A stretch of 64,000 nt of DNA from Boothiomyces macroporosus (Eukaryota; Chytridiomycota; Chytridiomycetes; Rhizophydiales; Terramycetaceae), in contig JADGKB010000032.1 in the NCBI GenBank assembly GCA_027604185.1, forward strand, positions 62,001 through 126,000, read 5' to 3'. The stretch's first letter is position 1, and each line of letters begins with the position of its first letter. Positions 3,221 through 64,000 of the stretch are shown here, one piece after another. Under the pieces are notes generated by a model, which was not told the origin of the DNA, ran no database searches, and saw only the letters and a list, made by a program, of their open reading frames with translations. A program made the position numbers and the translations under genes.

Positions 3221-5143
3221 TTAAAGCAATTTATTTGAATTTCTTGAAAACAATTTGAAACTCAATATAGATGAACTTTTCTTTTGAGGTTTGGTATCGA
3301 TAATGCTAGGAAACATCCCGTTGGCTTTGTTTGTGGTATTATCAAGGTACTCTGCAGATATTCTACTAATGGTATTCTTATTATCGGCAATGTCTTGAAA
3401 ATGATTCATACCAACATTTTTTAAGATGAGCTCTTGTTTTTGGACAATCTTGTTGTATGCGTTAAATAGTTTGAGAATATGGCGATAGAATTTATCTTTT
3501 TCTATCGATACTCCTTGTTGTATTTCACTGTTGATATCTATATTAGATTGATATTACGATCCATTGAAATCAGAAAATCAGTGAACACAATATTACTTGA
3601 CTCGTCCGATTGACTTTTTAATTGTTCCAAGTTGATTTTTATCTCGTTAATTTGACCATTTATCTTATTTTCTTGCTGCTCTAGTTCATTAATTTCTTCA
3701 ATCAAATTTCTATGGTGTTTGCTATGCTCGAAATTGACATTTTGAGCACATAGTAAATCTTTTTGGTTTCTTAATTTTTGTAATGAAACAGCTCTTTGTA
3801 TCCCTGTCTTTTTAAGTTGGATCGCGTAGGTCTTTAGTTCGTCAAAAGTCTCAATTTTGGGTGGTACGGGATTATTCTCCTCCATAGTCGTAGATTCAAC
3901 TAAAGTATGGTTAGAGGAAAATATTTTGGAAGAATGTGACTGTTGAAACTCAGTCAAGATCGCAGCGTAGGATTCAGACTTTTGGGCTAGCTATTTTTAG
4001 TGTTATTTCTACTTTAGTTTTGATATTTCTGGCTCTACTAGCATATTTCAATGTATTTATAGTTTCTTCAAAGTGGTCTACGAATGGGCTGATATTTGCA
4101 ATCATGCAAGTCTTGCAGTTCCCTCCAAGTGAATCCGGAAATTAGACATTGGATACCTTTAATAGTCTTGTTAATTTACTGTCGCGATAATTGACATAGT
4201 CTTGCTTTTTTGGCGAAGTATCCGAAAGTGAATTTATGCAATTTCCCAAGGCCAATAAAGATCTATTGATATTTGCCCCTTCGATCATTCTCATTCCCCT
4301 ATTCAAGGTTTCAGAAGCCCTTTCAGAGATTAAAAAGTGCATTACCAGAGCCTGCCAAATCAATCAGAGAGAGTTTGGAGAATCGCATACCTTTATCTGT
4401 TGATTTGTGAGAAATAAATATTTGCAAAACAGCATGGGATCTGGATGAGGTAACATTAGCTCCAGTTGATTCTTGAATTCTGTTTCTATTCCCTTTTCTG
4501 AGCAACTTGATGGTCTTTGCGAGAGATTGAATTGAAACATAACTAATTCCTGCCACCAAAACACCTTTTGAAGGATCTTCCTGCAACTCTAGATTTTCAC
4601 TCTTGTTTACCAAAAGATCTCGTATTTTCTCGTTGTATATTTCCAGGTAAGATATTGAAATTTTGTATTTTCCTCCATCATTATTTGATTTATCCGATAT
4701 TCTCTGGAAAATAGTGTTCAAAGTTAGATACATAATCCCTGGCTTTGTTTCCGTTCCCATCATGGTATATGTTTTCCCAGCTCCCGTAGCACCATAGGCA
4801 AAGACAGTCGCGTTGTATCCATTCATTGCTGCTTCGATTTGATCCTTCACACAAGAATTAAAAATGACGGTTTGACCATCTTTATCCCCAAAAACATGGT
4901 CGAATGTGTAAACTTTCTCTCTCTTTCGTTCTTTTCTTAGTATATCTTCAAAGTAATCGTCTGTAGGATCATAAATCATTACAGTCTAATTTTAATCAAC
5001 TTGCTACCTGAGAATCCACAACTTTTGCGATTTCCTTGCTGGATATTTTCGCGCTCTCCTTGGCTGTCAGAGGTCTAATTCGGACAGCGACCTAGTGGTT
5101 ATTCACCATATACCAACAATTTGCTGGCTAATGGTATGTTCAT
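3221..5143 (-). CDS. Kinesin-8 family motor protein
   Basis: This is a plus-end microtubule motor of the Kip3/KIF18/KIF19 type, a group that depolymerises or length-limits spindle and ciliary microtubules. Six excisions (5092-5113, 4986-5007, 4324-4345, 4136-4156, 3991-4012, 3538-3557) give about 597 aa. The motor head is N-terminal: VAVRIRPL, P-loop GATGAGKT, kinesin-8-style PGIMYLTL, switch [11 protein letters not shown], switch II LIDLAGSERAS, then [13 protein letters not shown] and [15 protein letters not shown] neck and a charged coiled-coil tail follow. The ATG at 5143 was chosen because the first intron then joins LASKLL to VAVRIRPL. The introns at 4324 and 4136 interrupt invariant motor motifs, so their ends are fixed by homology, yet neither ends in AG (see findings). 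If those two are not spliced, the gene is a pseudogene. Confidence 0.88.
4136..4156 (-). other. 21-nt intron with CG instead of AG at its 3' end
   Basis: It lies between SKLTRLLK and DSLGGNCKT of the kinesin motor. On the minus strand it begins GTATCC and ends CTAATTTCCG. Its excision restores the invariant motif exactly, and no AG lies close to the required junction. Confidence 0.7.
4324..4345 (-). other. 22-nt intron with TG instead of AG at its 3' end
   Basis: It lies inside the switch II motif, splitting DLAGS from ERASET. On the minus strand it begins GTAATGCAC and ends TTTAATCTCTG. The nearest AG, 4 nt downstream, would put the frame out and give a stop within a few codons. Confidence 0.7.
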
Positions 5144-5392
5144 TTAAAATGAAACAATGAGCACAATATTTCTCATTGACACTCCAATAATTTTCACAAT
5201 GAAAGGCGACTCTAATTGAAAAATATTATATAATTACAAATAACAGACTATTTCGCTCTCAATTCGTCTGTGTCATGCGATATTTTACTGCCCATTAGCA
5301 ACAGCCGTAAGGAACCAGGAATTCATAAGCAAGCAGGTTTACTCAAAGAGCGTTGATACAAAACATGGAAATACCATCCCCAAAAACTAATT

Positions 5393-6152: not shown

Positions 6153-7709
6153 TTAGTGATTAATAAGTAAGGAGCCCAACGCGCTTTGTAGGTAATCAAG
6201 ATTGTTTGGTGCCTTTTTCAATTTCTAAATAAGCGATAAACTTACACTAAGGTAATGGACAGCACTGGAAATCATTCTTTCTCTGTTATCTAGGATAACC
6301 TTTTGTTTTTCAAATTCATGGAGTAAACCATCAAACTGTTCATCTCGCTTTCCTTGGGCGTGCTTGAAAACGTCAACTAGTTGATATTCCAACTTTCTCT
6401 TTTCCTCTAGTAATTCATTCACTCTTTGGTTTGCTCCTGCTCGTTCTTTGTGCAATATATCATTCAATTTGGAGAGTTGCTTTTCCAATTCAACAGTATT
6501 ATTCTTTGATAGCTAAATTAGATTAAAGCTACTTGTAGTTCTTCAATGGTTTTCGAGAGAAAAACGATTTTGTTTTCCATCCGACTGAATTTCGATTCCC
6601 ATAATCTAAGGTGAGGGTAAATTACAATTTTTCCTTTGCTATCAACTTGAACTGATCATGAACAGAGTCCAATAGTTTCAACTTTTTCAAAATTGCTTTC
6701 TTTACAGATGAGAACGAAGCAAGCGACTGGATAAACTATTAAAATACCTTGGGATCAAATTTATGGCCCAACTTATCATCCAGATGTTGGCTAATCCGAA
6801 CAAGTAGATAATTGCGCTCTTTCAGTTCATTAATATAACGTTCACGTGTTTCTTGGAAAGACTTGTCAGGCTTTTGGGGCTCAACTTGACTTGAAGCTTC
6901 ACAGGTCTCTATTTTGCTTTGGATTTCCTTGGTGTTGTAAGCAGGGAAGATTTGAGAGGCCTGGGACTTCATTTCCTGGGGTTTGGATTCTTCCTTTTGC
7001 TGTTCCAAGATATGTAGCTTTTCTGATTGAGAGCTCAGCTCTTTTTGTAAAGTATTCAGTTTTGAATGAGCCATTTCTGCAAGATCTTTAAACTTTTGGA
7101 TTTGCCCTTTGTATTTATCAATTTGAAGCGAGTATTCTTGAGCTTTGGTTTCCAGCTCTGCCTTGGATTGATACACTTCATTCAGATTATCCATCAGCTC
7201 TTGGTTCTCTGCCTCCAACATTCTAATTTTCTTTCAATTAGACTGGTATTACTGCATCATTGTCGGAAAGCAACTCGTGGTCTTGTTCCCTTTGTTCCGC
7301 CATTGAACATATCGTTTCATGACTGATTTCCAGTTCCTTTACCAGATGATTGATATCTTCGTCCTTCTCTACCAGTAGCTCGTTCATTTCCTCTATCTTC
7401 TCTTGCAACTCGTCAACTTTGACTTTTGGACTTAAACTCATCGCTTTGAGTTCCGCATGCTAAATCAAAGGATACTTACTTCGTTGATGATATCAAGCAT
7501 CCCGTCTTTTGTAATCTTTGAGAGATTTTCCTGTAGGAAACACACTTTCATTTTTAAGCTAAAGTTTTCCTTCTCTAGTTTGGTTATCATCTGATATTAA
7601 CTGATATTACGTCTTCCCTTTGTCTGAGGCCCATGGAAAAGTTTTCCTCTTGATTATCATCGGGCAATATATTTAAATTTGAAGGCTCACTTTCTAACGA
7701 GATTTCCAT
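6153..7709 (-). CDS. Centrosomin-type (CM1) coiled-coil protein
   Basis: The protein is 470 aa after seven introns of 20-22 nt (7591-7610, 7460-7479, 7231-7252, 6727-6747, 6606-6625, 6513-6532, 6225-6245; all end in AG). The N-terminus carries a CM1/Cnn_1N-like motif (LRQREDMITKLEKENFSLKM, then KVCFLQENLSKI). In Cnn, CDK5RAP2, Mto1 and Pcp1 this motif recruits and activates gamma-tubulin ring complexes. The rest is heptad-rich coiled coil. It is divergently arranged with CEP135 (256 bp apart), which fits a joint role at the basal body or centrosome. Homology beyond CM1 cannot be claimed from coiled coil alone, and there is no obvious CM2 at the C-terminus. Confidence 0.75.
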
Positions 7710-7964: not shown

Positions 7965-10900
7965 ATGTCGAATGACTTTATCAACCTTCGACATCGTCTT
8001 GATCAATTTGAATACACAGAATATCTGGATGTAAATTCTATTCCGCTTGTGCAGCGACTATTTGCGGATTTAGTTAAAACAACAGAGACCTGCAAGAACC
8101 TGAAACTGACTTCCAGCCAGTTGACGAACGAGAATACGATTTTACAGGAGCAGCTGAATCCGATAAAGTAACTATTTAGTAACACAAGGCAAGAGCTAGT
8201 AAATATCACCCAGGAAAATAATGTATTGCACAAGGATATCATCGCCCTCCAAGAATCCAAAGGTAAGTGTTTTCTAATAGTAGGTAACGGAGTCTAATTC
8301 AGATTCGTTCAAGCAAGAGTCTTTACAGACAACTCGTAGACTAGAACAAAAGATTCATGAGATGAAATTTATTCAAACTCAGTATCAGACTAAATATCAG
8401 ATGGAACAAGCCAGGAATGATGAACTTCAAAATAAGCTGCAGGAGTTATTGTATAAATCACAGTATAGCACTCCTCAAGAAACTGGAAAGAAGTTGGTTT
8501 CAAAACTGCCCAAGATCGATTTGGAGACTGGATTAGGTAAACAAATACTGAGTTGTAGTGCCACTAAGTGAAATGGAGTTTTATAAGCCTCCTGATCCTG
8601 TTGTATATGACATTGTAAACAACTTGGAGTCTAAAGTGGAAACTTTAACATCTCAAGTTCAGCTCAAAGATTCCACCATTTCAGATCTGACAAACAAAGT
8701 AAATTAATTTAATGGTAGTGTTCACTGCTTAAAGATCAGTTAGAAAAACGCGAATTTGAAATAACACGGCTTGGATCAGAGCTGCAGCTTGCTAGAGCTG
8801 ACCAATTTGTTGCCAAGCAGCATATTACTCGACCTACAGAGAGTAGAAACGGAAATATTTCTAGATCTTCCATGAGAAACATTGGCATTTCAGATCTAGA
8901 AACTGCAAAAGACAGAATCGAACAGTTGGAAATCCAGACTGAATATCTTCAAGAACATATTAATGGTCTGGAAAAAGAAGTAGAGGATTTAGAAAATACA
9001 AAGAGCATGGTGCAGTCCTCGTTTGTTGAAGAAAAAAGAGAGTTGGCACAGAAACTTGCACAAGAAAGGGAAAGGAACGCAAAGCTGATGGAAAACTTGG
9101 AAAATGTAGAGAAAATGGTCAACCAATTAAATCCAAATACAATTCAGGTCTCAAAAAATCCCTCCAATATCAAGGTTTTGTTTGGTTAATGTAGAATGCC
9201 AAAACGATAAGCGAGCTCAATGATAAACTCAAAGCTGCAAATTTGAAAAGCGAACAGTCTTCCAAGCGGATATTGATGTTGCAAAAGGATATTAATAGTG
9301 CTTTTTTTTCTAACTAAAGAATTGACAAAAGAAAACAAGCTGTTGACTGAAAAATTGAATTCCAAACCTAATGAAATTACCAATGCAGAATCAAAGGTTA
9401 ATGCAGAATCAAAGATTAATGTGGAATCAAAGATTGAGTTGGAGTCTGCTAGAAAGGAGATTGCACATTTGCGCTCGATTCTCCAGGAACAGGAGAAAGT
9501 TTCGGTGCCAAATAGAGAAAATGAACACCTTCAGCGACAACTAAAAGCCTTGTATCAAGAGAATTCTATCCAGAAATCGACTTTGGAAACTCTTACTTTT
9601 AAAATTGATACTTCTGACAGAATCCTACAGGATGTGAAAATAGAAAACACTTGTTTGGTTAGACAGTACGAAACCTGCAAGAAAGAGCGAGATGACATGA
9701 TTGCAGCTTTGGAATCGTTTGAAGGAGAACTCGCGGAGCTTTGCGATCAGATTACCCAAATTACCCAAGAACGGGATAACTTGTTGGAATTGTACAAGCA
9801 AGTAAACGAGCAGCTAGAATCAAAGCAAAATCAAAAGTCACTAGCACCTGATGTTAAACCAGAGACTCAAGATACTTCAAATGTTGAGGTTTACAAAATC
9901 GAAATCTCTAAATTAAAAGAAACAGAAAAAATATTGCTGGAAACTATTGATTCTCAGACCATGGATATCAAAAAGTTGAAGGATGATCTGCAGGCAATGT
10001 CTTTAAGAACCAGAGAAACAGGAGTGTATGCAAACGAAGCAGTGTCGCAATTGGAGCGTGAAATATCCAGGTAATAGTTAACTAATTCCTGTCTCAAATC
10101 AAAATTGGATGAATCTGGGAAAGAGGCTCAGACAGTTAGAGAAAAACATGAAATGGCGATAAAGTCTTTGAGGGAATTAGAGCAGAATTACCAAGATCAG
10201 TTAAAGCAAAATGCTGCGGACCAGCAAACTATCGCAAACATGGAGTTAACCAGAGAAAGCGACTTGCTGAAAATCAGAGAATTGAAATCAAAAATCAACG
10301 AGTCGAATTTGCAAGTCACTAAATACGAAGCGGAATTGAAAAATATGGCAAAAATTATAGAAGAAAAGGACAAGTACATTGGAGAAAACAAGCACTTGCT
10401 CACTCAAATCGATAAAGAAAGGGACGGATTCCAAAATCAACTGGACCAATCTTTGGAAAATCTTGCAGATTTGCGAGAAAAATATGACAGTGTTCAGACA
10501 AACTACAAAGAATTGCTGAAAGAACGAGAGTCTCATTTGGGACAAATTGAAACGTTGACGAAACATTTAAATCAGCAAGATGTTCATGTAAACGAACTTC
10601 AAGGAAAGCTTGACGAACTTGTAATACTCAAGAACAGATTGGAATCACAATTAAATGTACCTGCACTCTAATGTAGCAATTTAAAAATGAAAATAATCAG
10701 TTGAGCTCAGATTTGATGGCGATCACAAGGGAAAATCAGATTTTGAATTCAGAGTTATCGATGGCATCCCAAACAAGAGATCAATACCAAGCCGAACTTC
10801 GCGACTGCGATATTCAGATACAGCAGCTGAATAAACTGATCTTGGGCAAGGACACTGAGCATCAGCAGTTAATCCTAAGCTATCATAAAGTAATCAGTGA

Positions 10901-12046
10901 ACATGAAAAGCTTGAGCTTGTATTAAGATCCTCCACAGAGGAGATGAACAACTTGAAGTATTTGGTATTAATATTAGAATGGAAATTGTAATGCGAGACA
11001 AGAGAATCCATCAACTCCAAGAGCATCTGGACAAGTTATCTCAAGAAGTAACCAAGTACAAGCTGGATAACAGTGCTCATGAAAAGCAAGAAAGCAGTAC
11101 TGATATTTTAACCAAGATTTGACTAGAACTCTTGCTACAGCCGAAAGGAATATCAAACAGCTTGAAATAGACAAGTTGCGACTCCAAAAGGAAGTTGATG
11201 TATGCAGAGAACTCACACAATCCATCAACAGATCCAAAGAAGATGTCAACCAAAGATTTATCGCATGTAACGTGGAGAATGAGAAATTGGAAAATTTACT
11301 TTACAAGAATTCAGTAGAATTTGATTCTTTGAAGACGCAACTCCAAGCCCAAGTACTCGCTCCTAACATAGATATTAAAGTGCGAACGACTGGAGGAACT
11401 TTTAAATAGCGAACGAACCAGGAAAATGAAGTCAGAACAATCATCAAAAGACCTGCAAGCCTCACAAGGGAATCTAGAAATACAACTTCAAAAACTCAAT
11501 GAACAGCAAGCTTTGAATTTGAAACTTGTAAATAAACAATTAGAAGAAGCAAAGCTAGAGTCTGAGAATCTCCAAGCTAGAGTTGCATCAATGGAGAAAG
11601 TACTTCACGAAACGCAAACACGTAAGAAAGACTAAATGTAGAATTGACAGAGTCCAACAAGCAACTACAAGAAAAAGTGCAGAAAATGCAAGAACTGGAA
11701 CAGAAACTGAAGGAGAAAGAGGATACAATTCAGGATCTGCTTCAACTCTTCACCAAAGACGCAAATACTGAAGAACCAGGAAGCGATGCCTTGAAATTAA
11801 GAATTATCAACCAGATCCAAGAGCTGCGAAAAGAAAGAGAAAAGAACAATAGAGAAATCTCTGAAAAATTATCTCCTAAAAGTGGCATCTCATCTGTCGC
11901 TTCAGATTATTCAAACTCTTCCAAAGATTCGGCAGCAGATGGTATATGCTTCTAATTTAGTGTATCTCGAAAGACTGAAGCAAGAAAGCATTGAAAAAGA
12001 AAAGAGGGTTCTTGCCACGATTGCTTCTGCTACGAACGAATTGTAA
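7965..12046 (+). CDS. CEP135: CEP135/Bld10-like centriole protein
   Basis: This 1265-aa protein is nearly all coiled coil. CEP135/Bld10 builds the cartwheel spoke tip and links it to centriolar triplet microtubules. The N-terminus matches the family signature: INLRHRLDQFEYTEYLDV, then SIPLVQRLFADLVKTTE. Thirteen segments are removed: 8168-8188, 8263-8302 (double length), 8537-8558, 8699-8718, 9175-9194, 9298-9319, 10071-10091 (ends TG), 10657-10676, 10958-10977, 11097-11116, 11353-11371, 11622-11641 and 11942-11960. The remaining 3798 nt is exactly 1266 codons with no internal stop. The ATG at 7965 is the first in frame and gives the conserved N-terminus. The length is close to the roughly 1140 aa of animal CEP135. 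Confidence 0.85.
8263..8302 (+). other. 40-nt double intron in CEP135
   Basis: 8263-8283 begins GTAAGTGTTTTCTAAT and ends TAG. 8284-8302 (GTAACGGAGTCTAATTCAG) follows with no intervening base, and each half has its own donor, CTAAT core and AG. Removing all 40 nt joins LQESK to DSFKQESLQ in frame. Removing only the second half leaves a 21-nt in-frame insert without a stop. Removing only the first half gives a stop. Confidence 0.75.
10071..10091 (+). other. 21-nt intron in CEP135 ending in TG
   Basis: It begins GTAATAG, has the core AACTAAT, and ends TCCTG. It contains the only stop between two long open segments in the same frame. No usable AG lies near the end. Confidence 0.6.
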
Positions 12047-12133: not shown

Positions 12134-13534
12134 TTAATTTGCTGCAGTAAATGATACGTCGATTTTAGCTTGTCTTGCCAATTGAACAATTTCACTCATT
12201 TTAACAGCCTTAGAAGCAGCTTCGTCCAAATCATCGATAGCGAGAATCTTTAATCCAGATTCAGCAATCAATTTTTTGGCAGTCTCGACTTCAGTTCCTT
12301 GTAATCTGACAATAAGAGGAAGCTTAAGCCCGAGTTCCTGCACAGCGGCGATAATACCTTCGGCAATAATATCACATCTCATAATACCACCAAAGATATT
12401 GACCAAAATAGCACTGACATGAGGATCAGATGAAATGATCTTGAATGCTTCGGCTACTTGCTCCTTTTGGGCACCACCACCAACATCCAAAAAGTTGGCT
12501 GGGTCACCTCCATGAAGTTTGATGATATCCATAGTTGCCATAGCTAATCCAGCACCATTGACTATGATTAGAATTAATTACCTAAGCAACCAATGTTACC
12601 ATCTAAACCAATATAGTTGAGGTTCCATTTAGCAGCAGCAACTTCACGGGCATCTTCTTGAGTTTTGTCACGCAAAGCAAAGATATCTTTTTGACGGAAT
12701 TCAGCATTGTCGTCAAAGCCAAATTTAGCATCCATACACATAACTTCGCCAGATTGTACTTCAGCAAGTGGGTTGATTTCAACCATAGTTGCATCCTTTT
12801 CAATAAAGATTTTGTACAACTTCATAAAAGTGTCGGCAGCCTACAGTAAGGGCCAAAATACCTTTTCGATAGCATCACCTTCAAACCCGATTTTGGCAGC
12901 GACATCAGCAGCATCAACATAAGTTAATCCGTATTTTAAATCGATAGCGTGAGTAACGATTGCTTCTGGGTTTTCGTGGGCAACAGTTTCAATGTCCATA
13001 CCACCTTGTGAAGAAGCAATAATAACAGGACCTTGTGCTTTACGGTCCATAACGATTGCAAAGTAATATTCCCTGCGAACATAGACTCTTTCGACAACAA
13101 ATACCTGCGGTCAAATAATGCGTACTTCATTGCAAGGACGGCCCCCAGCACCAGTTTGCTTGGTAATCAATTTGTGTCCCAACATTTGCTTTGCGTATTC
13201 TGCAACTTGCTTTGGGCTGGAATTAAAAATAGTTACGAATATGCCAATTTAACACCTCCTTGTAATCCGGAATCAAAGTGGCCTTTACCACGACCACCGG
13301 CCAACACTTGTGCTTTTACTACAACATCCTTGGTTCCCAATTCCTTTGCGATGGTCTCAGCATCTGCTGCGGTTTTGGCAACTCCACCTCTGGCAACAGT
13401 TACTCCGTACTGCTTTAATAAATTCATTGACGAATGTTCATGGATTGAGAGATATCTTTTGCTGTGTTGCTAGAATTAAATCTTGGTTCTACTTGGAAAG
13501 ATTTGGAGAGAATTCTTTGTGAAGCTCTAAACAT
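12134..13534 (-). CDS. LSC2: Succinyl-CoA ligase beta subunit, mitochondrial
   Basis: This is the beta subunit of the TCA-cycle enzyme that converts succinyl-CoA to succinate with nucleoside triphosphate formation. The protein is 431 aa after five introns (near 13478, 13230, 13110, 12850 and 12575; 20-23 nt). A basic N-terminal presequence ([13 protein letters not shown]) points to mitochondria. Visible blocks are the conserved N-terminal motif at [17 protein letters not shown], the ATP-grasp segment [23 protein letters not shown] with metal-binding Glu/Asn, [28 protein letters not shown] and FGGIMRCD. The 23-nt intron in the presequence is the longest ordinary single intron I found. ATP versus GTP specificity cannot be told from this. 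Confidence 0.95.
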
Positions 13535-14319
13535 TTTTGATGATTCGCAAAGGGTAATAATTTTTTTACAGACGCGCCACACTCTCCATGATTTTCAAGA
13601 GTAAATTTACTGGGCTGGACTCATCCTTTCCGTGTTGTCCATGAGATAAATACCTTGGGAGCATGTGGGTTTACGATGGAAGTATAAATATTTCATTTAG
13701 TCTCAAGTGGAGTAATTTCAGGTGAACCTCCTTGGGAATAATTATTAGTATGCGCAAAGGAATGTTTACCTTTTAATTTTAATTGGCATATCATGAAAAG
13801 CCATAGCCAATAAAGTGAAGGGGAAAAGACAGCTTTCAATAATTATCCTGACTACCTTGTAGCACTCAACAATTATCCTGACTACCTTGTAGCATTCAAC
13901 AATTATCTTTGGCTACCTCGTAGAATTCAACAATTATCCTGACTACCTTGTAGAATTCAACAATTATCTTTGGCTACCTTGTAGAATTCAACAATTATCT
14001 TTGGCTACCTTGTAGCATTCAACAATTATCCTGACTACCTTGTAGAATTCAATAATTATCCTGACTACCTTGTAGCATTCAACAATTATCTTTGGCTACC
14101 TTGTTGAATTCGTATGTAAAAAATGACACAAAGCCAAAGAATTTTTCCACCGCAGCAATAACGATGCCCTCAACTAATCAACTAAACTCATCAGTCAATT
14201 CCAGATTGGTTCAAGTTAATCCCCTGGTTTTGTTGTAAGGGCTCTTTCAGAACAATCACCTGTCTGCGCCACATTTTGATCATTCTTTAAGCTCAATGGC
14301 TGTCTTGATTTTTCCCAAA
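13535..14319. other. Gap holding a minisatellite; no gene seen
   Basis: This is the intergenic stretch between the divergent succinyl-CoA ligase gene and the membrane-protein gene at 14320. It contains the 30-bp array listed separately. The remainder shows no ORF or splice-connected exons I could support. Confidence 0.6.
13837..14110. repeat. 30/31-bp minisatellite, 9 copies of two variant units
   Basis: Unit A contains CAACAATTATCCTGACTACC (30 bp). Unit B has CTTTGGCTACC in place of CCTGACTACC (31 bp). Both end TTGTAG(C/A)ATT. The order across the array is A A B A B B A A B. The copies are nearly identical, so the array is young or homogenised. It is non-coding. Confidence 0.92.
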
Positions 14320-15174: not shown

Positions 15175-15318
15175 TAAACCTGCTGTAATTAATTTGCTTT
15201 ATTTCATCCCCAAGTAAGTCTTTGAACATGGTCAGTCTTTCTGTTTGTGCTCTTAATGAACCCCAAGAACTGCAATTCATTAACACCTTTCAAGAACCTC
15301 GCCCTAGATTAACTAAAA

Positions 15319-17128: not shown

Positions 17129-17241
17129 GTAGATTTTGAGATCTCGGACAAGAAATATTAGGACAAGTAGAACCTTATAAAAGTAAATATTTTAAGAGTT
17201 CTTTTGCGGATCTAAAACCCAGGATTATCAAATAGAAGTAT

Positions 17242-26565: not shown

Positions 26566-26617
26566 ATTGCTATTCGACTCTCTTACTTTTGGAAGATCAT
26601 GGTGACGTTTCTTTACA

Positions 26618-47285: not shown

Positions 47286-47958
47286 TATGCGAAAATTAAA
47301 TTGACCGCTGCTTTTAAAGGTCTCTGCTTTTCGTTGAGGCTATTTTAGGAAATTGCTTCAATACTGCTTTTTTAATAAAGACCAATCAGAGCTTGGTATT
47401 TGGAATAATTATTCAGGCGCTGATAGGTATTAGTATTGGTTTAGTCCTATCTTTGTTTAATCCCAGTTGTTTGAGCCAATTATTTCTCGGGAATCGGGAA
47501 CCATCAAAGACCCCTTAAATTACGAATCACAGATTACCGAAATACCAAATTGTTAGTGTAGACGAACAATCAAGTATTTTGAAAAGATTTGTATAGAGCT
47601 GATATGAAGAGTAAAGAAACGGATTTAGGAATAGGTTGCTTATTGTAGAATAACCACGATGGAATCATCAAAGAAAAACGGCTTATTTGGCACGGCTTCT
47701 GGTTTTGGAAAGTAGATTGGACAACACTGAAACCGGGGCATAATTATTCTTTTATAGCTGGCACAATTAAATACAAGCAGATGAATCATATTGAGGAGTA
47801 ATTAAAGGCTCAAGTATCAAGCCCTTCCATGCTAGAGTTAGTATCTTGAAGCAACTGCAAAGAAAGCAGCTATCAATCTTTATTTCTTTAGAGGCACCAA
47901 TTGATTGCTAGCCTTCTGCGTACTACTACCAGAGTTACTTGCACTAGATTAGTATTTC
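47286..47958. other. Gap with a possible gene remnant
   Basis: A plus frame at 47342-47518 encodes a hydrophobic segment (VFGIIIQALIGISIGLVLSL) but has no start codon or splice partner. I regard it as a remnant or chance frame. Nothing else is supported. Confidence 0.4.
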
Positions 47959-51317: not shown

Positions 51318-53354
51318 ATGAACAAAAAGTTGGTCGAGTTCAACAACCAATTCTTCAACAAAGCACAGGAATTCAAAGAGTACAAACTGTTAATCAAACA
51401 ACTGCAATTACTGGCGAAAAAGAAGCAGTTGCTCCAGCATTACTATGATGATCTCGAACACAATGAAGACTGTTTAAAAGGAAATCATGTGGAAAATAAG
51501 GATTTTAATCATTCTATTGGAGTTGGCGAATCTGATGGAATGAATGGATCTGATGGAATTGATTATAGAGATTTCAGCATGGTGGAAAATTACAGTGAGG
51601 AAAATCTGTTTTTGGGTTCCAATAATGATCAAGGTAGTCAACCAAAAGGGTTAGGGCTAGATCGTGCGATTGTTGAAATACCAGGGGTAGATAGTAATCA
51701 TATGGAGGGTAGAGAACAGACCGTAGAGGGTAGGCAAACACCAGTGTTAGAACAGACGGTAGAGGGTAGGCAAACACCAGTGTTAGAACAGACGGTAGAG
51801 GGTAGACAAACACCAGTGTTAGAACAGACGGTAGAGGGTAGGCAAACACCAGTGTTAGAAAAGACCGTAGAGGGTAGGCAAACACCAGTGTTAGAAAAGA
51901 CCGTAGAGGGTAGAGAAGAGAATGACAAGAATCTACAGAATTGTCAAGAAAAAGAAAAGAATTCAGAGAGTATGCAAGCATATAAACCGGCTTTAGAATC
52001 AAAGGAACAGAGAAACACTATCTCAGGGAACAAGAGTGAAAACAAAGAGATTACAGAAACCAGACTAAAATTAAAAGAACTTGGGGATGTTGAACAAGAA
52101 ATTTCTTGCAAATTAAACAAATTCAATCTCAAAGAACTCGAGTTTATCTCAAAGAGCTTGTCCTTGATCAAATCGCCAATAATAGAAATAGTATCTGAAT
52201 CAAATATCAATTCATCCATTTTTACATACTCGTATTTTATTCAGAATATTACGCATATTTCAATTAAAACCGGATCTGTTTCAACAAGGGACTTTGAACT
52301 ATTGATTGATTTCATAGAAACTAGAAAATTACAGTATTTGAAGTTGATCAACCAAGTTGATTTGTTTAATTATTCTTCAATATCTCTTCAAGATATCCTC
52401 AAAAGAATCAATTTCTTTAAATGCAGGATTAATGAACTATCTCTGGTTGATCTGATGCAAGATAATTATCAAATCAGATTACCGAAATTCAAGAAATTGG
52501 AATTGGTGAATATGTCTTTGAATGATAGCGATTTACATAATATTGATTTCAGTGGTTGTGAAGCTCTTACACTGAAAAGCAATTTCTTTACCGAAAAAGG
52601 ATTACAGCGGATAATTACCAGTAAATTAAAAAACATTAATATTTCAAATCAGTTCTGTACAGTATGTTTCATGGTATTTGATCACTTGGAAAAAATAGAA
52701 TTTGATTCAATTTCATTCACGGATAAAGAAACGGATTACTTGCAAAAAGGCGTATCGAAATCACGCGTAGAATCACTATCGCTGAGAGATTGCGGAGTTA
52801 CATTGAATGGATTAAAGAAAATATTAATCAAAACAAAGTATTTGCAGCATTTGCAACTGAGCAATTTGATTTATACACGAATAGAGATTGAAAAAAAGGG
52901 AAACAAGTACCAACCGACATTTGATGAAATCAAGGAGTCATTCCAAATTGAACGCCATGCAGTCTTACTTGTATCAGAGTACATTAAAACATCAAAACTA
53001 GTATCTCTCTTGTTCCATATTAAAGGCGAATACTATACATTCATGACACTAATGTACGACTGTATCAAACTAAACAAAACTATTACCAATTTAAATGATC
53101 AATGGTCTTTTTGCAAAGGATTCATCAAACAGAACCAGACTAACCAAGTACAAAGATTAATTCAACTTACTATCAACATTCGATGTTTAAAAATGCTCGG
53201 GATTGATAGAGATTTAAGGGATATTGTTGCTGAAGAGTTTTTGATTGGGCTAGTTCCTCTAAAATACAAACGAACTGTGTTTAAATTGTTTGATAGGTTT
53301 GGGCTGCGGTATAGGAATCTGCCAGAGTTTATTGATCAATTACTTGAAATATAA
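51318..53354 (+). CDS. Leucine-rich/RNI-like protein with 12-residue repeats
   Basis: This intronless 678-aa protein has a basic coiled-coil start (KAQEFKEYKLLIKQLQLLAKK). An acidic region follows with about five tandem copies of EQTVEGRQTPVL (residues about 130-200), then a charged stretch. The C-terminal half (from about residue 270) shows irregular leucine-rich units of the ribonuclease-inhibitor kind (LESLSLRDCGVTLNGLKKIL, LQHLQLSNLIY). The overall fold is a guess from that pattern, and the family is unknown. Confidence 0.7.
   Translation: MNKKLVEFNNQFFNKAQEFKEYKLLIKQLQLLAKKKQLLQHYYDDLEHNEDCLKGNHVENKDFNHSIGVGESDGMNGSDGIDYRDFSMVENYSEENLFLGSNNDQGSQPKGLGLDRAIVEIPGVDSNHMEGREQTVEGRQTPVLEQTVEGRQTPVLEQTVEGRQTPVLEQTVEGRQTPVLEKTVEGRQTPVLEKTVEGREENDKNLQNCQEKEKNSESMQAYKPALESKEQRNTISGNKSENKEITETRLKLKELGDVEQEISCKLNKFNLKELEFISKSLSLIKSPIIEIVSESNINSSIFTYSYFIQNITHISIKTGSVSTRDFELLIDFIETRKLQYLKLINQVDLFNYSSISLQDILKRINFFKCRINELSLVDLMQDNYQIRLPKFKKLELVNMSLNDSDLHNIDFSGCEALTLKSNFFTEKGLQRIITSKLKNINISNQFCTVCFMVFDHLEKIEFDSISFTDKETDYLQKGVSKSRVESLSLRDCGVTLNGLKKILIKTKYLQHLQLSNLIYTRIEIEKKGNKYQPTFDEIKESFQIERHAVLLVSEYIKTSKLVSLLFHIKGEYYTFMTLMYDCIKLNKTITNLNDQWSFCKGFIKQNQTNQVQRLIQLTINIRCLKMLGIDRDLRDIVAEEFLIGLVPLKYKRTVFKLFDRFGLRYRNLPEFIDQLLEI
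51710..51910 (+). repeat. 36-bp coding repeat, about 5.5 copies
   Basis: The unit encodes (E)(Q/K)TVEGRQTPVL and contains GTAGAGGGTAGGCAAACACC. Copies are almost identical at the DNA level, with only Q/K and synonymous changes, so the array is recent and likely variable between strains. Confidence 0.9.
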
Positions 53355-53499: not shown

Positions 53500-56400
53500 T
53501 TATTCTTCTAAACCAAGTTTGACGACTTTGTATATAGTTGGCCAAGATGAGGGAGTAGCAACTCCCTTTAAAACGGTAGGTGTAATCAATTCAGAAACAC
53601 TGCAACAGGCACTATCTTGAACATCATTCCAAGTAAACAACTCTCCAATCTTTGGATTTTGTTTACTCATTACTGAATCAATAATCCTAGTGAATATTTG
53701 TTGATAGGTTCCAACTAGCTCTTCAGCAAACGACCGCTTAATGTTCATGTAATAGAAACTCATTGTTACTGCTGTTTCAGATGGCTCAATCATGACGTTG
53801 ATATCAAATTCACTGTAGAATGAAGTGTAATCAAGCTGGACGTTTCCATTGGAAAAATTGTAACCTTTGCTGTTGCAGGCAGGCATATTTTGGTAGTAAA
53901 AGACAGAGTTCCATAGTTTAGGATACCATGGAATAGAACCCGACCATTTGATGTAGCTAGACAAACTTGGATGGTGAACACTTGTAGCAAAACTATCTGC
54001 TTGGACGGTCTTTAGGAACTCGGAGAGGCTCAAAGATTCATCAATCTGTAGTTTAGTGGGAGAGACATGAATTGCACATCCAACAATACTAGAATCAATT
54101 AAAACTTACTCTTCGACATTTTCTATATCCAAATCTCTTCCTGAGAACATGTTGCCAAACAGAACTTGGTTTTTGCCAGTAAAAGAAGCAAGGACAATTC
54201 CCCAAACGGCTTTGAATATCATTGCTGAAGTTATATTCAACATTGAAGCTGCCTTGTTGACTTTTGATATTGGAATTGCAAATTCTTTTGAAATCTTTTT
54301 GACAGTCTTTGAATAATCATACATTGACTGGTTAAATGATGACATCTTTACATCTTTCAAATAGTGATTAAAGTATTTTTGAGACTCTGATTTGTTTGAA
54401 AGGATATACTGAGGCAATCCTTTGATTGAGGCAGATGTCTTTAGTTCTTGACCGTCCATACAAGCAAACATTTCATTCAACAGTCTCCCAAGAGACCATC
54501 CATCGTACAATACATGGTGGATTGAAAATACCAGATCAGTGTGTTTGCCTTGCTTTTCAATCAGTACCATTTTAAAATAACAATGTTCTGTCAGAAGAAA
54601 GCCTTTCTTTGCCTTTTTTTTCAAGTATAGATCAAGATCCTTTTCTATGGCTATTGAATGGCGGAATGGCTTTTGTACCACTTGGTAAACTCCTTTATCA
54701 GTCAAGAAAAATCTTGTTCTGAGTGCTGGATGTGCCTTGATTGCTTGATAAAGAGCATCCTCTAGCTTTGTTGGATCAATTGGTGTTGTAATCTTCCAGC
54801 TAATTTGGAAACAATAGGCATTTGGCTCAACTAGAGTTTTGAGATAGATTGATGCTTGCATAGGAGTTGCTGGATACGTTTCTATAATTGGAGGATCGCT
54901 TGATTTTATCTTTGACAGTATTTGAGCTTTAACAGACTCGCTAAAATGAAATTGTGTTTACCTCACATTGAGCAGGCTATAATCAACTATTGGCTTGCCC
55001 TTTGGCAATTCTTTGGTGTAGAGTGCAGCAATTCTTGCGAGGGTTTGTTTTTGGAATACCACTGCCGATGTCAGAGGTAATCCAATTAGCTTTGATCGCT
55101 TGGTCATTTGAATTAGCAGCAATGAATCCCCGCCAAGCTCAAAAAATGAAGAGTTTTTCCCAATAATGCTGGCATCAATCTTCAAAAGGTCTGCCCAAAG
55201 CGTAGCCAACTGTATTTCAATAGCAGTGTCAGGCGTTTCGAATTCCACTTTGATCTCCATTTGCATTAAAGCTTTCTTGTCTACTTTACCATTTGGTGTA
55301 AGCGGTAAAGAATCCATAGGAATCACCACAGATGGAACCATATAAAATGGCATGGAATCTAAAGCCAAGTCTAGGATTTCACTGACATTTACATTGCTTG
55401 GAGTAACAAAAGCAACAAGCTTTCCTTGAGCTACGACAACTTCTGCCGAGTCTACCAGCTTCAAATTGTTTTTCACTTCATTCAATTCGATTCTATAGCC
55501 GTTCAACTTTACCATATCGTCATTTCTTCCCATAAATTCAATTTCACCATCTTTTGTCCATTTACAGACATCACCCGTGCGATACATTTTTGAAGCATCA
55601 TTTGTGAACACATTACCGATGAATCGCTCTTCAGTTAAATCAGGTCGATAAAGGTATCCTAATGCAACACCAGTTCCTCCTACTACCAACTCTCCTGGAA
55701 CTCCAACGGGGACCAAGTTTAAACCTTTGTCCACAATATACAGCTTGACATTTGCAAAAGGACGACCTATAGTAATCGTTTCAATCCCAGGTGAAACTGG
55801 TAGTGAAGTGCAAGCAATTGTAATTTCCGATGGACCATAGGTGTTGTACAGTTTAACAATCGGTGACCACTTTTCAACCAATTCTCGATCAAGTGCTTCG
55901 CCACCAACAATAATCTGTTTAATATTAGGATAATCCTTTGGGTCCAAAGATTTCAAAAGTGATGGGGTAATGTCCATAGCTTCAACTTCACAAAGAGAGT
56001 CAAAACTGTCTGCTTCTTTTAGTATGAGTGTGGAATGGTTTGATAGGCACATGAAAATATCTGATTCACAAGTATCAAAGTTAATTGATACTACATTTGC
56101 CCATTTCATATGATCGACTTTGTAGGCATTTGGAAGTTGGACAGTTGCATAGTTGGTGAGGGATTGATGACGAATGACTACGCCTTTTGGCTTTCCTGTC
56201 GACCCTGATGTGAAAACAACATATGCCGGATCTTCACCACTAATATCTCTGCATGTAACTGAATCCACTTTATCGTATTTTGAATAGTCCAAAGAATATA
56301 CGGTTATTCCAAGAGACTGCAAACTTTCCACCAGTTTTGGATCTGAGTCTTCATGAACCAGTGCTCGCTTTGCACGGGCTTCACTTGCAATCGTTGTAAT

Positions 56401-59400
56401 CCGTTGAATTGGCATGGAGTTATCAATAGGAATGTAAGCACCGCCAGCCTTCAAAACTGCAAATATACCAACGATAAATTCAAATGATCTGGTGGTAATG
56501 ATAGGGATATATTCCCCAACGGTAATATTTTCATTCACCAAAAACTGTCCAAGATTTCTTGCTTGTTCGTTTAATTCCCCATAAGACATTTTCTTGCTGT
56601 ACTGCTCCAACGCAACCAGATCTGGTTCACTATCAGCAATTTCTTCAAAGGCGTGGTGGGCTAGTTTGTATTTGATTTCTATTTTTGGACCTTCACCGAA
56701 ATCCAATACTTGTCCTGTAATTCTGGTTGGCAATGCTTTGATTCTGCTAACTGGGATATTGCTTCTGTTTAAACAGCAATTGATTATATTTTCAGTCACG
56801 GTTTGAAATACATCCACAAACTGATTACAGTACTGATCAGTGATAAACCAAGGGAGGTAAGCAATATTCAATAGATAGTTTGTTGCCTGGGGAAAGATTG
56901 TGATACCAAGGGGGAATGATAAATGATTAACGTAGAATAGTTTCTGCAAGTTAATTGGGCATAGCGAAGGTTCAGTGAAAGAATGACGTTTGGTGTTTTG
57001 AAAAACAAAGAGTGACTCTACCAGTGATTTTACAGACATCCAATTCTGAATCTGCCCGAGCCCTACAGCAGAATAATTTGACTTTTCGAGATATTCATTT
57101 GTCATTTCTTTGAGCAAGTCCATGATAGACTTTTCGTCGGACTTTACCCTGCATGGGACACAACTGATGATTGGACCAGTAATGCCTTGGATTCCTTCCA
57201 GGGGGATTTCTCTTCCAGAAACAACTTCTCCAAAGGTAACGTCTTGATTGGCAGCAAATATTTGCAGGGTAATACCCCACGCAGCTTTCAAGATGATGGC
57301 CTGAGTGGAGCCAGAATATAACGCTGCTTGTTTTAGCGAATCAGCTGAAAAATTACTATAATAATCAATAGTTTTGAATACAGTTTCTGGTGTCTGGATT
57401 TTCTTTGTAAACATGGTTGACGGAATAGTGCCATCTAAATAGCCAAGCCAGTAGCTGCGAAGCTTTTCCTGATCTTGAGAATAATAGTATTCGATAAATG
57501 GTTTATATTGGACCGCATTAGGTGTTAAATTGTTGGTAAATGCCTGTTCAAAATCTCTAAAGAATATGCCCAAACTCCATCCATCATAGTTAACGTGATG
57601 AAAAGTGTAGATGAAATAGGTTTCTGCTTTTGTCTTTAAAACAGTAGCCCTAGCCCAGTATGGATCCAGCTCTGTAAATCCACGCAATTTATCTGCTGTT
57701 AAGAAAGACTCGAGTTCCTCCTCGACAATATCCAAGGGAGGCACAAAGCTGTGGTTGATGAATTGATAAACAGTTTTATCAACAATACAGACTCCGGTTT
57801 TCAGTATATCATGTTTGGCGACCACTTTTAACCAAGCTTTAAAGTAGGCTGTTGGGTCTTGGCCGTGCTTGACTTTCCATATTGCATGATCTAGATAGGC
57901 TGAACTCTTTTCCAAGGTTGAGCCAAACATTGCCTCTTGCATGCTAGTACATGGGTAGCAATCAGGGTTTTCCAAATTGAATCTTGAACTGATTTCCTTT
58001 GCAATATGTGCTCTGAGGTTAATGTCAATTTACTCTATAACGATCGGGTGTGTTTGGATAGCCGCTCTGGTGCATTTGCGTCTTTCTGCTAGCTTCTTTA
58101 CGGTACGCAAAGTAAAAATATCTGCTGGTGAGAGGTGAATATTGGCTTTAGCACAGGCATTTGAGAGCAAAACCACTGAAATGGAATCACCTCCAAGGTT
58201 GAAAAAGTCGCTATCAGCAAGCAAATACGTTCGATTCAAATCCAAAGTTTCAATAATCAACTTGGCGATCTGCTGTTCTTGTTTTGTCAAACTATTCATT
58301 GCATGTAACGAAATATCCACAGTCTTTAGCGAGTCTCCGTCTTTTGGAATAGTATCCACTGCAACAACAACACTTGGGATATTTCCGGGCAAACAATTCG
58401 ATATGGCTCTAGTTATTTCGCCAGCATCACAAGACTCTTCCACAAATACAACTAATTCGTTTTCGACCTCTAGGATTTCAAAATGATCAATTCCAAGGGA
58501 TTTCTTTAGTTCCTGTTTATCTACTTTGTAGCCTTGAATAACTAAACTGTCGCTCTCGCCATCAAAGTTTAAAAACAGATGATCCTCCATTATGATATGA
58601 TTCAAGTTGGAAGAATTAAAGTTTCTAAGAGTGACCTTACCAATTCCATATGCTTTCCCAGGACCAAAGTCTACCACATGTGCTGGATCTATGTTATCAC
58701 AGACCATTATCCAATCCAAAGGCTTTTCGAAAATCAGCTCCAACAAAAGACGTGTTAAGCTTTCCCGATGATTACGTAAATCGCTTCCTACATTAGTACA
58801 GGATACCATCAAAAGTGTTGATTACCGGAACTTTCAAGTCTGCTCCATGCCAGAATTCCTGATCAATATCACCCAGAACCAAATCGATGCATTCTCGCAA
58901 ATGGTGAGTGTGGAATGGTGCTTCAATTGCAAGATATTTGAATTGCACGCTATCATTTTCTTGCTGAATCTGAATTAGTAAAGTTTACCTTTTGCAACAC
59001 ACTAACAATTTGAGTTAAATCAGATTCCAAACCACACAAGACCATTGATTTGCTTGAATTTATCAATCCAATACCAACATGCTTTTCCGCTCCATTGTAA
59101 TCTGAAACTATACGGTTTAAATGATCCAACGTGAGACCGTTCACAGAAAGCATTGGTGAGCAAGTACCATCAGAATTTCTGTATTCATCCCAGAATCCTG
59201 CAGTCCTTTCACCAATTAAAGATAATAGACGAATGGCATTTGAAAAGTTTTGCTTGAAATCTTGAATGGTAGTAGATGACGAAACAGCAACTGCAGAAAC
59301 GAGTCCTTGACTATGCCCCAATACACTGGCGAATGACTGGTTGAATTCTCGAGGTGAGAGATCATGCTCAAGGCAGGAAATGTAGTAGTGGCACAATTGA

Positions 59401-60948: not shown

Positions 60949-62221
60949 TGTGGATTAGGGAAACGTTTAAAATAGCGCACTTTTATACTGCAGCTGACGT
61001 ACACCCTAACGTCACCCATCTAATATGCAAATGATCAAAGTAGAGACAAAATATCAATTGTTTCAATAAATTCTTTTCTTTATTTCAATTTGAATCCGAT
61101 TGCCGTGATGCATGAAATTAGAGTTTTGCGTCCACAATTTGCTTTTTGTGCCCATTTTACAAGCCCTAGTTCATTACAACCAAAATGGGTTAGAATATAT
61201 ACATTGTAATGAATTAGAATACTTTAAGGTTTGATCCAATTCAAAAACACTCACTGTTATTTGAATAGAATAAGAGTTTGGTGGATTTGAATAGATTCGA
61301 AAGATAATTGGTGGTGTTCTCAAATTGCAGAACCCTCAAACCGTAAAACTACATTACTAAATCAACCAAAAACAAACCTTAACCACTATCACGTGGGATA
61401 AACTATTCTGCCTCATCCATTTTAAAATATCTCTTTGCGAATCATAAAAAATTTTATGAATGACGTGTCCATTCAATATCACCATACAAAAATGGGAGCA
61501 AAATCAAGTAGAAATTATCGCAAATATTTGATGTTTGGAAAGAGATAGCTTATTAGCGGATATTAATAATACAAATATGCTAGAGGCTGGATTAGATTTG
61601 TTTGTTTTCACGTGTCTATCCAACATACTTGATATACGTGCCACGATTATTATAGTTCTATGTGTAGTGGTTTAGATTGATTGGTTCTTTGAATGAAAGG
61701 GTAGGACAATTAGACCTAACTGTGAATCTGTCTTTTATTCAGTTTCCTTTTTATACAATACAGTAGGCTCATCATTTAAACTATAGTCTCGCGTGAGATC
61801 ATCGAATGTTACACGATCTTTGATACGATTCACAGTAAGAATAGATAACAATCCATCAGATTCCACGCCTGAAAACAGTCGCAGCTTGGGAGAAATGGAA
61901 CATAGCAATACGTGTCTATAAACTGGTATCCTTAAAAGTTGAAAATGAACTCCAAGTCACTTTTGTTGAAAGAGATTACAGTCCAATAAAGATAAAACTT
62001 TGGGTTTCATCAAGGACCACATTGCTGTGATATAAACACTTGCTCAAAATGCTTATTGAACTAGGGTTATTCTCATTATTAGCTACGTGTTCCTTTACCA
62101 GAAAGCAGAAATATACGCAAAGGAGAATACAATCCTTCAGATAAATCTCTGATTATACAAAGACTCTTCTCTGAATACTGGCCAATCCAATGTCAGTTTC
62201 AAGCTGAAAATCTTTTAAAAA
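60949..62221. other. 1.27-kb gene-poor region upstream of the effector
   Basis: I see no intact gene. A plus frame at about 61841-62025 reads somewhat coding-like (AAWEKWNIAIRVYKLVSLK) but has neither start nor partner exons, and may be a remnant. The density of stops and A+T-richness contrast with the compact region to the left. Confidence 0.5.
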
Positions 62222-64000
62222 ATGTCATCTGAACTTTGGGTAAAATTAGGAAACAGCAGAGCAACTCAAGTATCAACTAACAATTGTACCGACGTATACG
62301 ACTTTCTCAAGGCTTGCAAAAAGGAACTCAAGAACCAGCTTGATACTTACGATCTCAATCAACTCTCCCTCTCCACTACTGATGGAACCGGATGCTCATT
62401 TGCTCAGTTACCTCTCTCCATCAACCTGACTACTCTCTAAACACTGCCAGGACACCACTATTCATCCGAGTTGTAGACAATTCCGCTGAAGGTATTTGTA
62501 AGATTAACAGTAGTGAGAACTCCCAATCCTCTACGCCGCTCTGATGGGTTAACAGGAAATACACCTGTGCTAAATAATACATTGGTTTATACCAATACCT
62601 TTACTTTGGAAGATGCTCTCCAAAAGTTAGAAAACATGATCAATCTGGATGCAGAAATGGGTTTATTTACAAACTACGATTCACTGGACAACACAATATT
62701 TCCTTTTTCGAATTTGCTCAAGTTTCCAATCCCAAGTGTTTACAGCAATCCCGAATTTTTGTTTTCCAAAGAAATTTACGAAACTGAAAGAAAAATTGGG
62801 ATTGATATGCCTGTGGACAAGCTGCTAAAGCTGAATTTCAAGGCGATGGTGCTAATCGGAGTCAGTGGCTGTGGGAAAACAAGAACTTGTTATGACTATT
62901 GTCGTGCAAAATGGGGGCTCTTTTTCGATTGCACCACTGATTCTGACTTTCTTGCTATGATCAAGAAGTTATTGTCGAAATGCTCTCCACAAAAGACAGT
63001 CAAGTCAAGTACAGTTTGAAAGGCTCTCTATAACATTGATTCAATGTTTGATCGCTGCTCGCCTAATTGTTTTGCAAAAGTTGAGAAGTGAATACCCCGA
63101 ACTAACACCTTTTGAATGGCATTGCATGCAAAGAAGTCGAGGTGTCCGTCGATTATTTACTGCGTTATTTTTAAAACTTGCCAACTATCCTTGGAGTATC
63201 ACTGAAGAAATCTATGACAAGATAGTATACCACTTTCCAAAAGACGGCTGCCTCATTTTTGATGAATCCCAACACATGCTAAATTTGTTGACTGGTGACT
63301 ACCGGTCCCAAAAAGAATATTATGGTGGAATCGATGCTAATGGGGCTTTTGAACACCCTCGCCCATTCTTTTCCTTCCTTACTGGCTTTCTTATGCAATC
63401 TAGCTTCCGTTGTATCTGGTGTGGAACTAAAATGAGGATTCAAAATGTAGAAATTTTGTACTCTGCAGCAGGCATGAAGAGGTCCGAAGTGGAAATTTTT
63501 ACAGACTTTAACTATCTAACTCCAAATCAAATCGCACTTCTTCTTTCAGAGTGGTTGACTGTTGATTTACAGCAAAATACGCCCTTGCTTGAAACAATTT
63601 CCTATTATCTACAAGGTCGTCCTCGCTTACTTTTTTCATTCTAGGGACTTTTGGTTGGTAACGGCAATTTGCAAAAGACATTTGAATATTACTTTTGCAA
63701 CATGACTACTAAGCAACACCGTTCAACTTGGGATAAATATTCCTTCTATTGGTTTTGGACAGATAGAGCAAGCTGGATAATTGAGCCAATGGATTCAAAA
63801 AAAGATGTACTTGAAAAGCGCTTGGTATCTCAAACTCTAGTCGACTTGTGCATTAGATTTCTGTTTTCAGAGCATGGGTATATCCAATTTTCTCAAGACC
63901 TAGATTTGGTAACCACCAATCTTGTAATGATATCTGTATCGCTATTTCACTGGAGTGTATGTATGTCTGAACCATTGGTATTGGCTGCTGGTTTGAATTT
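62222..64000 (+). pseudogene. Crinkler (CRN)-type effector with P-loop ATPase, broken and truncated by window edge
   Basis: CRN-like effectors are host-targeted proteins first described in oomycetes and also found in chytrids, Rozella and Glomeromycotina. The N-terminus has a ubiquitin-like CRN header with LWVKL and a DLNQL-type segment (62222-62440). A frame break near 62400-62440 separates it from the TPLFIRVVDNS-type end of the header. After a 22-nt intron near 62496 comes a region with ALQKLENMI, then a P-loop ATPase core: VLIGVSGCGKTRTC (Walker A) followed by KWGLFFDC. A 19-nt intron (63010-63028) follows, then CLIFDESQHM (Walker B). An in-frame TAG at about 63642-63644 interrupts the gene; the frame then stays open to the window end. 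A 44-nt GT...AG interval could also explain the first break, but the internal TAG still argues for decay. Confidence 0.75.

Follow-up and report, generated by a model that had tools for sequence, protein, structure and literature searches.

Genome-wide introns of about 20 nucleotides in the chytrid fungus Boothiomyces macroporosus, probably removed by a largely conserved major spliceosome

How small can a spliceosomal intron become in a fungal nuclear genome? The question is raised by a stretch of 64,000 nucleotides (nt) from contig JADGKB010000032.1 of Boothiomyces macroporosus (Terramycetaceae, Rhizophydiales, Chytridiomycota), a free-living chytrid that is in culture. An initial annotation of this stretch, which we call the window (C32:62001-126000 in our numbering), proposed that its genes are interrupted almost exclusively by spliceosomal introns of 18-23 nt. 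Our analysis covered one assembly of the species, with 15,203,306 bases in 216 contigs, and compared relatives through their deposited proteins. Taken together, intron lengths, splice signals, restored homology, small nuclear RNA (snRNA) genes and a GenBank gene model bear out the proposal of ultrashort spliceosomal introns in this fungal nuclear genome. We consider it very probable that U2-type introns throughout this genome have been reduced to about 19-22 nt and that a major spliceosome of largely conserved make-up removes them.

The length distribution was obtained with a purpose-built, two-strand gene finder that starts from generic splice sites, requires GT and AG ends in every intron call and uses an explicit intron length prior that is flat from 10 to 600 nt. 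It was trained on the window together with positions 1-200000 of contig C1 (264 kilobases, kb). Initial, looser settings gave 2514 intron calls, which is heavy over-calling, and the settings were then tightened. In the conservative pass, run with the flat prior, 376 introns were called in the 264 kb, and 258 of them are 18-23 nt long with a mode of 20 (67 calls at 19 nt, 111 at 20, 47 at 21 and 26 at 22), which confirms the observation of tiny introns. The mode at 19-22 nt emerges unaided under the flat prior; the remaining 118 calls are scattered without a peak, with no more than 3 at any one length. Within the window, 70 of 100 conservative introns are 18-23 nt long, and the peak recurs in the C1 segment (188 of 276). 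A permissive pass, which uses a learned length prior that favours short introns and contains false positives, places 135 of 178 window introns in this range, so that the "about 95" excisions reported earlier fall between the two passes. Of 124 predicted genes whose coding sequence reaches 300 nt, 83 carry at least one intron of 18-23 nt, and internal exons flanked by two such introns have a median length of 210 nt (n=142).

Controls and additional loci indicate that the peak belongs to the genome. After deletion of the called introns of 25 nt or less and training from scratch, the model made 136 calls, of which 19 fell at 18-23 nt with at most 6 per length; these 19 are a remnant and not the peak, and some of them may be real introns overlooked in the first pass. 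An earlier control, in which the final parameters were applied to spliced sequence, returned 1 intron, with parameters that came from training on the full data. At the level of simple strings, GTAA...TAAY...YAG patterns of 19-22 nt occur 34 times in the window against 6.6 expected from ten third-order Markov simulations of it. Genome searches returned 29 further loci, and the flat-prior pass, with parameters learned on the 264-kb set, was run on 18 of these (14 contigs), the other 11 overlapping or duplicating those 18. Here 63 of 97 calls are 18-23 nt long; 17 of the loci contribute 62 of 91, and each of the 14 contigs holds at least one such intron. In both sets, most introns are thus shorter than about 25 nt and narrowly distributed (258 of 376; 63 of 97), which supports a trait that extends genome-wide, beyond the window segment.

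A typical intron in this genome consists of a GTA(A)NT donor, a CTAAY or TTAAY branch motif and a YAG end. Over all 376 flat-prior calls, the donor has A at +3 in 86%, A at +4 in 58% and T at +6 in 58%, while the G at +5 that is usual in other donors is weak, being found in 36 of the 258 short introns. The branch motif was detected in 386 of the 538 permissive introns of 18-23 nt. In this permissive set, the distance from the first intron base to the branch A is 13 nt in 169 introns, 14 nt in 141 and 15 nt in 36, and the last base follows the branch A at a distance of 5 nt in 164 and 6 nt in 146. These two nearly fixed spacings account for the narrow range of intron length. Donor, branch point and acceptor had been described as nearly touching; they do lie very close, but spacings of mostly 13-15 and 5-6 nt are kept, and a pyrimidine tract would not fit. 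In 233 of the 258 short introns of the conservative set, a branch-like A precedes the end by 4-7 nt; the same holds for 42 of the 111 calls longer than 25 nt and, among background 20-mers with a YAG end, for 1651 of 14037 (11.8%). Moreover, 46 of the 47 introns of 21 nt, which would cause no frame shift if kept, contain an in-frame stop. With GT-AG ends, a donor complementary to U1, and a branch motif complementary to U2 near the 3' splice site, the donor and branch motifs that the model learned are U2-type; the signals of U12-type introns are an RTATCCTT donor and a TCCTTAAC branch site.

Excision of these intervals restores conserved protein, as had been claimed from the letters. For SYF1, thiolase and ODAD1, in which all modelled introns are 19-22 nt long and all are flat-prior calls, we determined at each junction the share of covering homologues (up to 120) that are gap-free across 12 residues. 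At least 80% are gap-free at 15 of 20 junctions (SYF1 6 of 7, thiolase 6 of 6, ODAD1 3 of 7). The SYF1 introns, on the plus strand, lie at 31026-31045 (20 nt, GTAACCAAAATTAACCGTAG; gap-free in 108 of 115 homologues), 31150-31168 (19 nt; 115 of 116), 31314-31332 (19 nt; 114 of 118), 31691-31710 (20 nt, GTAATTTATTTTAATGTAAG; 118 of 119), 32506-32525 (20 nt; only 60 of 119), 32731-32750 (20 nt; 120 of 120) and 33317-33335 (19 nt; 116 of 120). Those of thiolase, on the minus strand, lie at 38275-38293 (19 nt; 118 of 119), 38093-38112 (20 nt; 120 of 120), 37982-38001 (20 nt; 120 of 120), 37859-37878 (20 nt; 117 of 120), 37589-37608 (20 nt; 97 of 120) and 37301-37319 (19 nt, GTAATTATTACTAATATAG; 119 of 120). 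The fourth SYF1 intron and the sixth thiolase intron are two of the three sequences quoted in the initial annotation; the third, GTAATTAATTCTAATCATAG, was located in a succinyl-CoA ligase beta gene at 12562-12581 on the minus strand. The statement that every finished gene length divides by three also holds, but it carries no independent weight because it is true by construction in the models.

The ODAD1 introns, on the plus strand, lie at 18709-18729 (21 nt; gap-free in 98 of 102), 18852-18871 (20 nt; only 6 of 103), 19082-19102 (21 nt; 111 of 113), 19454-19473 (20 nt; 112 of 119), 19939-19960 (22 nt; 32 of 117), 20081-20100 (20 nt; 35 of 112) and 20240-20258 (19 nt; 67 of 108), and the deposited B. 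macroporosus model agrees at each of them. The protein spliced from 18636-20407 matches that model, HK103_004137, with 100% identity over 100% of its length (BLASTP); residues 1-540 of the GenBank protein are identical to the spliced ODAD1, and the model uses all seven tiny splices. As a side observation, HK103_004137 (644 residues; 18636-21146) fuses ODAD1 with a separate downstream gene at 20775-21146. Spliced SYF1 is 99% identical over 92% to the protein of Boothiomyces sp. JEL0838 and 87% identical over 100% to that of Terramyces sp. JEL0728. The JEL0838 model agrees at 5 of 7 junctions, among them that of the poorly conserved fifth intron, and lacks the stretch around the first two. In the deposited Terramyces models (P0002/P0242 proteins), SYF1 lacks residues at junctions 2, 3 and 4 and ODAD1 has 7 extra residues at junctions 1 and 5, which looks as if tiny introns had been widened or translated and suggests that the trait may be common to the family Terramycetaceae.

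These comparisons bear on whether the intervals could be assembly errors or products of gene decay, that is, frame-breaking insertions in pseudogenes or sequencing artefacts. That the evidence for splicing is sequence evidence speaks for such a reading. Against it, the same donor, branch and acceptor motifs recur in the intervals at almost constant distances, and the intervals lie in conserved genes that are highly identical to those of relatives and whose deposited models use them. Errors would not place a branch site in 233 of 258 intervals against a background of 12%, and we regard this explanation as highly improbable.

Matches to components expected to read such signals are present in the genome. 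Genes for U6, U1 and two U2 snRNAs were found in the assembly, matching the U2-type character of the introns; U2 and U6 exceed their Rfam cut-offs, U1 falls just short of its own, and the pairing motifs are intact (ACAGAGA in U6, ACTTACCT in U1, or ACUUACCU as RNA, and GTAGTA, or GUAGUA, in U2). The two U2 genes (L011 and L012; 142.2 and 135.4 bits) have diverged, by eye mainly in their 3' halves. Among proteins, Slu7, Prp18, SF1, U2AF65, U2AF35, Isy1 and a Cir_N protein were matched, and the U2AF35 gene itself includes a 19-nt interval built like these introns, GTAAGTGTTAGCTAACCAG. Some matches occur as equal-scoring duplicates (L044 on C49 and L045 on C100; C20:74251 and C20:119318), which are possibly uncollapsed haplotypes or duplications.

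With these components in place, removal of the intervals at the DNA level, or their bypass in translation, becomes vanishingly improbable. Either would be compatible with DNA evidence alone, and ciliates do excise short DNA segments. But the boundary signals here are those read by U1, by U2 and as AG, the genome contains U1, U2, U6 and the step-two factors, and we know of no DNA-level removal or translational bypass of such intervals in fungi.

Another possibility is that the introns are spliced by a non-canonical spliceosome whose factors have been lost or altered, as suggested for the ciliate Stentor. Three such changes were considered. In yeast, Slu7 and Prp18 matter less when the branch point and the 3' splice site lie close together, and their loss might be expected from the short distance seen here; both were matched. 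Loss of U2AF might be expected where no pyrimidine tract exists; both subunits were matched, the large one under its cut-off. The third change concerns Cwc25, which in Stentor coeruleus has lost a glycine plug, a change that may help to avoid a clash with the tiny lariat (PMC9505925). Our Cwc25 candidate has a Pfam match to Cir_N only, and we name it from its N-terminal residues, MGGGDLNLKKSWHP, which include the Gly2-Gly3-Gly4 plug and Trp at 12 and 24 as given in PMC9505925. Since the candidate keeps the plug, the Stentor change would not be needed for introns of this size. The initial annotation had raised loss or alteration of U2AF or Prp factors, and this expectation did not hold for the factors searched for, as U2AF65 (in pieces and under its cut-off), U2AF35, SF1, Slu7 and Prp18 were all matched. 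In favour of an altered machinery, RED_N (PF07808) had no match in the whole assembly, in a search made without a positive control, and human Smu1/RED is essential once the distance between 5' splice site and branch site is short (PMC6692369). The model for the N-terminus of Isy1 is also unconvincing. Against it stand the retained plug, the nine other families matched (U1, U2, U6, Slu7, Prp18, SF1, the large U2AF subunit, Cir_N and Isy1, with U1 and the large U2AF subunit under their cut-offs) and the match to U2AF35. We hold a spliceosome with lost or altered factors to be rather unlikely.

Our preferred reading, tiny U2-type introns spliced out by a mostly conserved major spliceosome, has a number of points weighing against it. 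Splicing of the intervals is something that we infer from DNA, as are the assembly steps proposed below. The small excess at 19-21 nt persists in the retrained control, and at the U2AF35 locus (L040) only 1 of 6 flat-prior calls is 18-23 nt long. The branch signal is only partly independent because the acceptor model extends over the 6 bases at the intron end; the T and A that precede these 6 bases lie outside it. Five of the 20 junctions sit where homologues vary or align poorly and offer no check. The U1 gene reaches 68.8 bits, 0.7 under its cut-off of 69.5, and the match to U2AF65 comes in pieces at 230.7 against 310.3. Lastly, the range of 18-23 nt does not include 118 of the 376 flat-prior calls; several of these are artefacts, but there may be some real longer introns among the rest.

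This last point leads to the question of whether tiny introns share the genome with a substantial class of ordinary introns of 40-200 nt, in which case "almost exclusively" would be wrong. As many as 111 of the 376 flat-prior calls exceed 25 nt, and when the count is limited to calls whose two flanking exons each reach 90 nt and whose length is not divisible by three, 224 remain, 169 of them at 18-23 nt and 52 at 24 nt or more. In addition, the gene finder is weak at introns in 5' untranslated regions, and both the counts and the words "almost exclusively" refer to the coding regions that it models. However, the long calls have no length mode and mostly lack a placed branch site (42 of 111 have one), under the same filter the learned prior, biased towards short introns, puts 204 of 217 calls at 18-23 nt, and the SYF1, thiolase and ODAD1 models contain introns of 19-22 nt only. 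Several long calls are coding sequence or enclose a tiny intron. The gene finder also makes errors at short lengths: alignment to PDB 6g4q exposed the call at 12582-12599 as coding sequence, and alignment to PDB 7w1r did so for 29676-29696. Judged by reading frame, the permissive call at 40830-40891, within an open frame with a TTL match, looks wrong, as do permissive calls in a kinesin gene and a 74-nt call inside the U2AF35 gene. A substantial class of ordinary introns is accordingly unlikely, and "almost exclusively" is well supported, though with 118 of 376 calls outside the range it is not proven.

If the intervals are spliced as we propose, recognition would proceed through the usual RNA pairings, with U1 reading a weakened donor and SF1 and U2 reading the branch site. 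Because no pyrimidine tract fits, U2AF would act mainly via the AG; in human short introns with truncated pyrimidine tracts, SPF45 takes the place of U2AF65 (PMC8363638). In human extract, a distance of about 50 nt between 5' splice site and branch site is required for efficient assembly, and in the human B complex the two helices are 15 nm apart (PMC6692369). With those dimensions, the human arrangement could not span 13-15 nt. As the distance between donor and branch point here is far below the human value, U1 and U2 may engage the intron in turn, or within a more compact B complex. That assembly at 13-15 nt proceeds without the human-type B-complex geometry and also without RED is a tentative idea, which we hold with low confidence. 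If true, U6 must receive the donor from U1 either ahead of, or together with, the binding of U2 to the branch site, and the minimum of about 50 nt in human extracts would be a property of that machine and not of splicing itself.

Further genes of the window have introns of the same kind. In the succinyl-CoA ligase beta gene (minus strand), homology to PDB 6g4q resumes past the 20-nt intron at 12562-12581 quoted above, which the flat pass had joined to 18 coding nucleotides in a single 38-nt call. Three more introns of this gene are flat-prior calls within the 6g4q alignment (12841-12861 and 13105-13125, each 21 nt, and 13217-13236, 20 nt), and the single gap in that alignment lies away from their junctions. 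The SUV3 helicase gene (minus strand) has 19-nt flat-prior introns at 30331-30349, 30253-30271 and 29857-29875, each with a junction that is gapless against PDB 7w1r, and a 21-nt intron at 30733-30753, beyond the aligned part, that is a flat-prior call only. Three genes have conservative introns known from flat-prior calls only: six of 20-22 nt at 6513-7610 on the minus strand (6513-6532, 6606-6625, 6727-6747, 7231-7252, 7460-7479 and 7591-7610), nine of 19-22 nt at 8168-11960 on the plus strand, and nine of 19-21 nt at 15304-18248 on the minus strand. The 3' end of a gene with an HSP70 family match has two flat-prior introns of 22 and 21 nt within 21525-21746 (minus strand). A protein kinase gene has a 19-nt flat-prior intron at 39233-39251 (plus strand), and its spliced protein covers positions 1-263 of the 263 in the Pkinase profile. 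Finally, a gene at 54089-58988 on the minus strand has five conservative flat-prior introns of 19-21 nt (54089-54109, 54941-54961, 58013-58033, 58788-58806 and 58970-58988); its open frame at 54958-58029 contains Condensation, AMP-binding and PP-binding domains and is part of a non-ribosomal peptide synthetase-like gene.

The window also holds a DDE_Tnp_4 transposase fragment (1618-2109, minus strand), a 36-nt tandem repeat of 5.6 copies within an open reading frame (51713-51913; VEGRQTPVLEQT units) and a 30/61-nt tandem repeat array with 88% matches (13831-14111), in which the permissive pass placed doubtful introns. Multi-span membrane proteins that appear related by eye lie in the same neighbourhood, at 25444-28583 and 44533-48844; two frames from these regions gave no Pfam match.

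Introns of this size have consequences for annotation. One survey dropped introns below 30 bp in all species (PMC10639083), and surveys or gene callers with a minimum of about 30 nt will miss or mangle such genes; the Terramyces models, with extra or missing residues exactly at tiny-intron junctions, illustrate the problem. Among the matches listed in our literature search on short introns, fungi, chytrids and Boothiomyces, which covered titles and the openings of abstracts and mostly did not extend to subscription journals, none described fungal introns of about 20 nt. The tiny introns were, however, already present in deposited gene models, apparently without comment. Chytrids are maintained in culture collections (PMC7537106), which makes the lower limit of intron size testable by fungal biochemistry.

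Within the fungi, the high intron density seen here is like that described for Chytridiomycota in PMC8476143; the short fungal introns named in the available part of that survey average 63 bp (Cryptococcus), and none near 20 nt is mentioned there. At about 20 nt, the introns of this fungus come near the smallest known. A close parallel is Stentor coeruleus, in which introns of 15-16 nt occur genome-wide in a narrow range, with a GTA donor, canonical U1 and U2 motifs and both U2AF1 and U2AF2 kept, as in B. macroporosus (PMC9505925). The branch A is near the intron end in both (5 nt in the 15-nt class of Stentor). In contrast to Stentor, introns here are some 4-6 nt longer, with nearly all of the extra length on the donor side of the branch point; they have a clear branch motif where Stentor has no strong consensus, and the Cwc25 candidate retains its glycine plug (PMC9505925). 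Mikrocytid introns are likewise numerous and confined to an exceptionally narrow range of lengths (16-17 nt), but mikrocytids are reduced parasites with highly reduced spliceosomes (PMC10245619), whereas among the splicing factors searched for here only RED is unmatched, in a search made without a control. The CTAA branch motif fixed near the 3' end and the variable donor resemble the type B introns of Trichomonas (23-25 nt), of which that whole genome has 24 (PMC12316389) compared with 258 short introns in 264 kb here. The nucleomorph of Bigelowiella natans has introns of the same length (about 19 nt), a relatively high intron density and donors that are largely GT(A), without a branch-point signature (PMC2483917); it is, unlike the present genome, the relict nucleus of an endosymbiont, and the branch signature here is strong. 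According to PMC2483917, the very short introns of Paramecium, the B. natans nucleomorph and dicyemids share weak donors and the lack of a branch-point signature. The introns of B. macroporosus do not have such degenerate signals, and the genome breaks that pattern: its introns are short, numerous and equipped with a clear branch site. In the literature consulted, tiny introns that extend genome-wide belong to ciliates, dicyemids, parasites and a relict nucleus, and in several of these the splice signals have decayed or the spliceosome is reduced. The present case is a fungus whose splice signals are clear and in which every core factor searched for, except RED, was matched.

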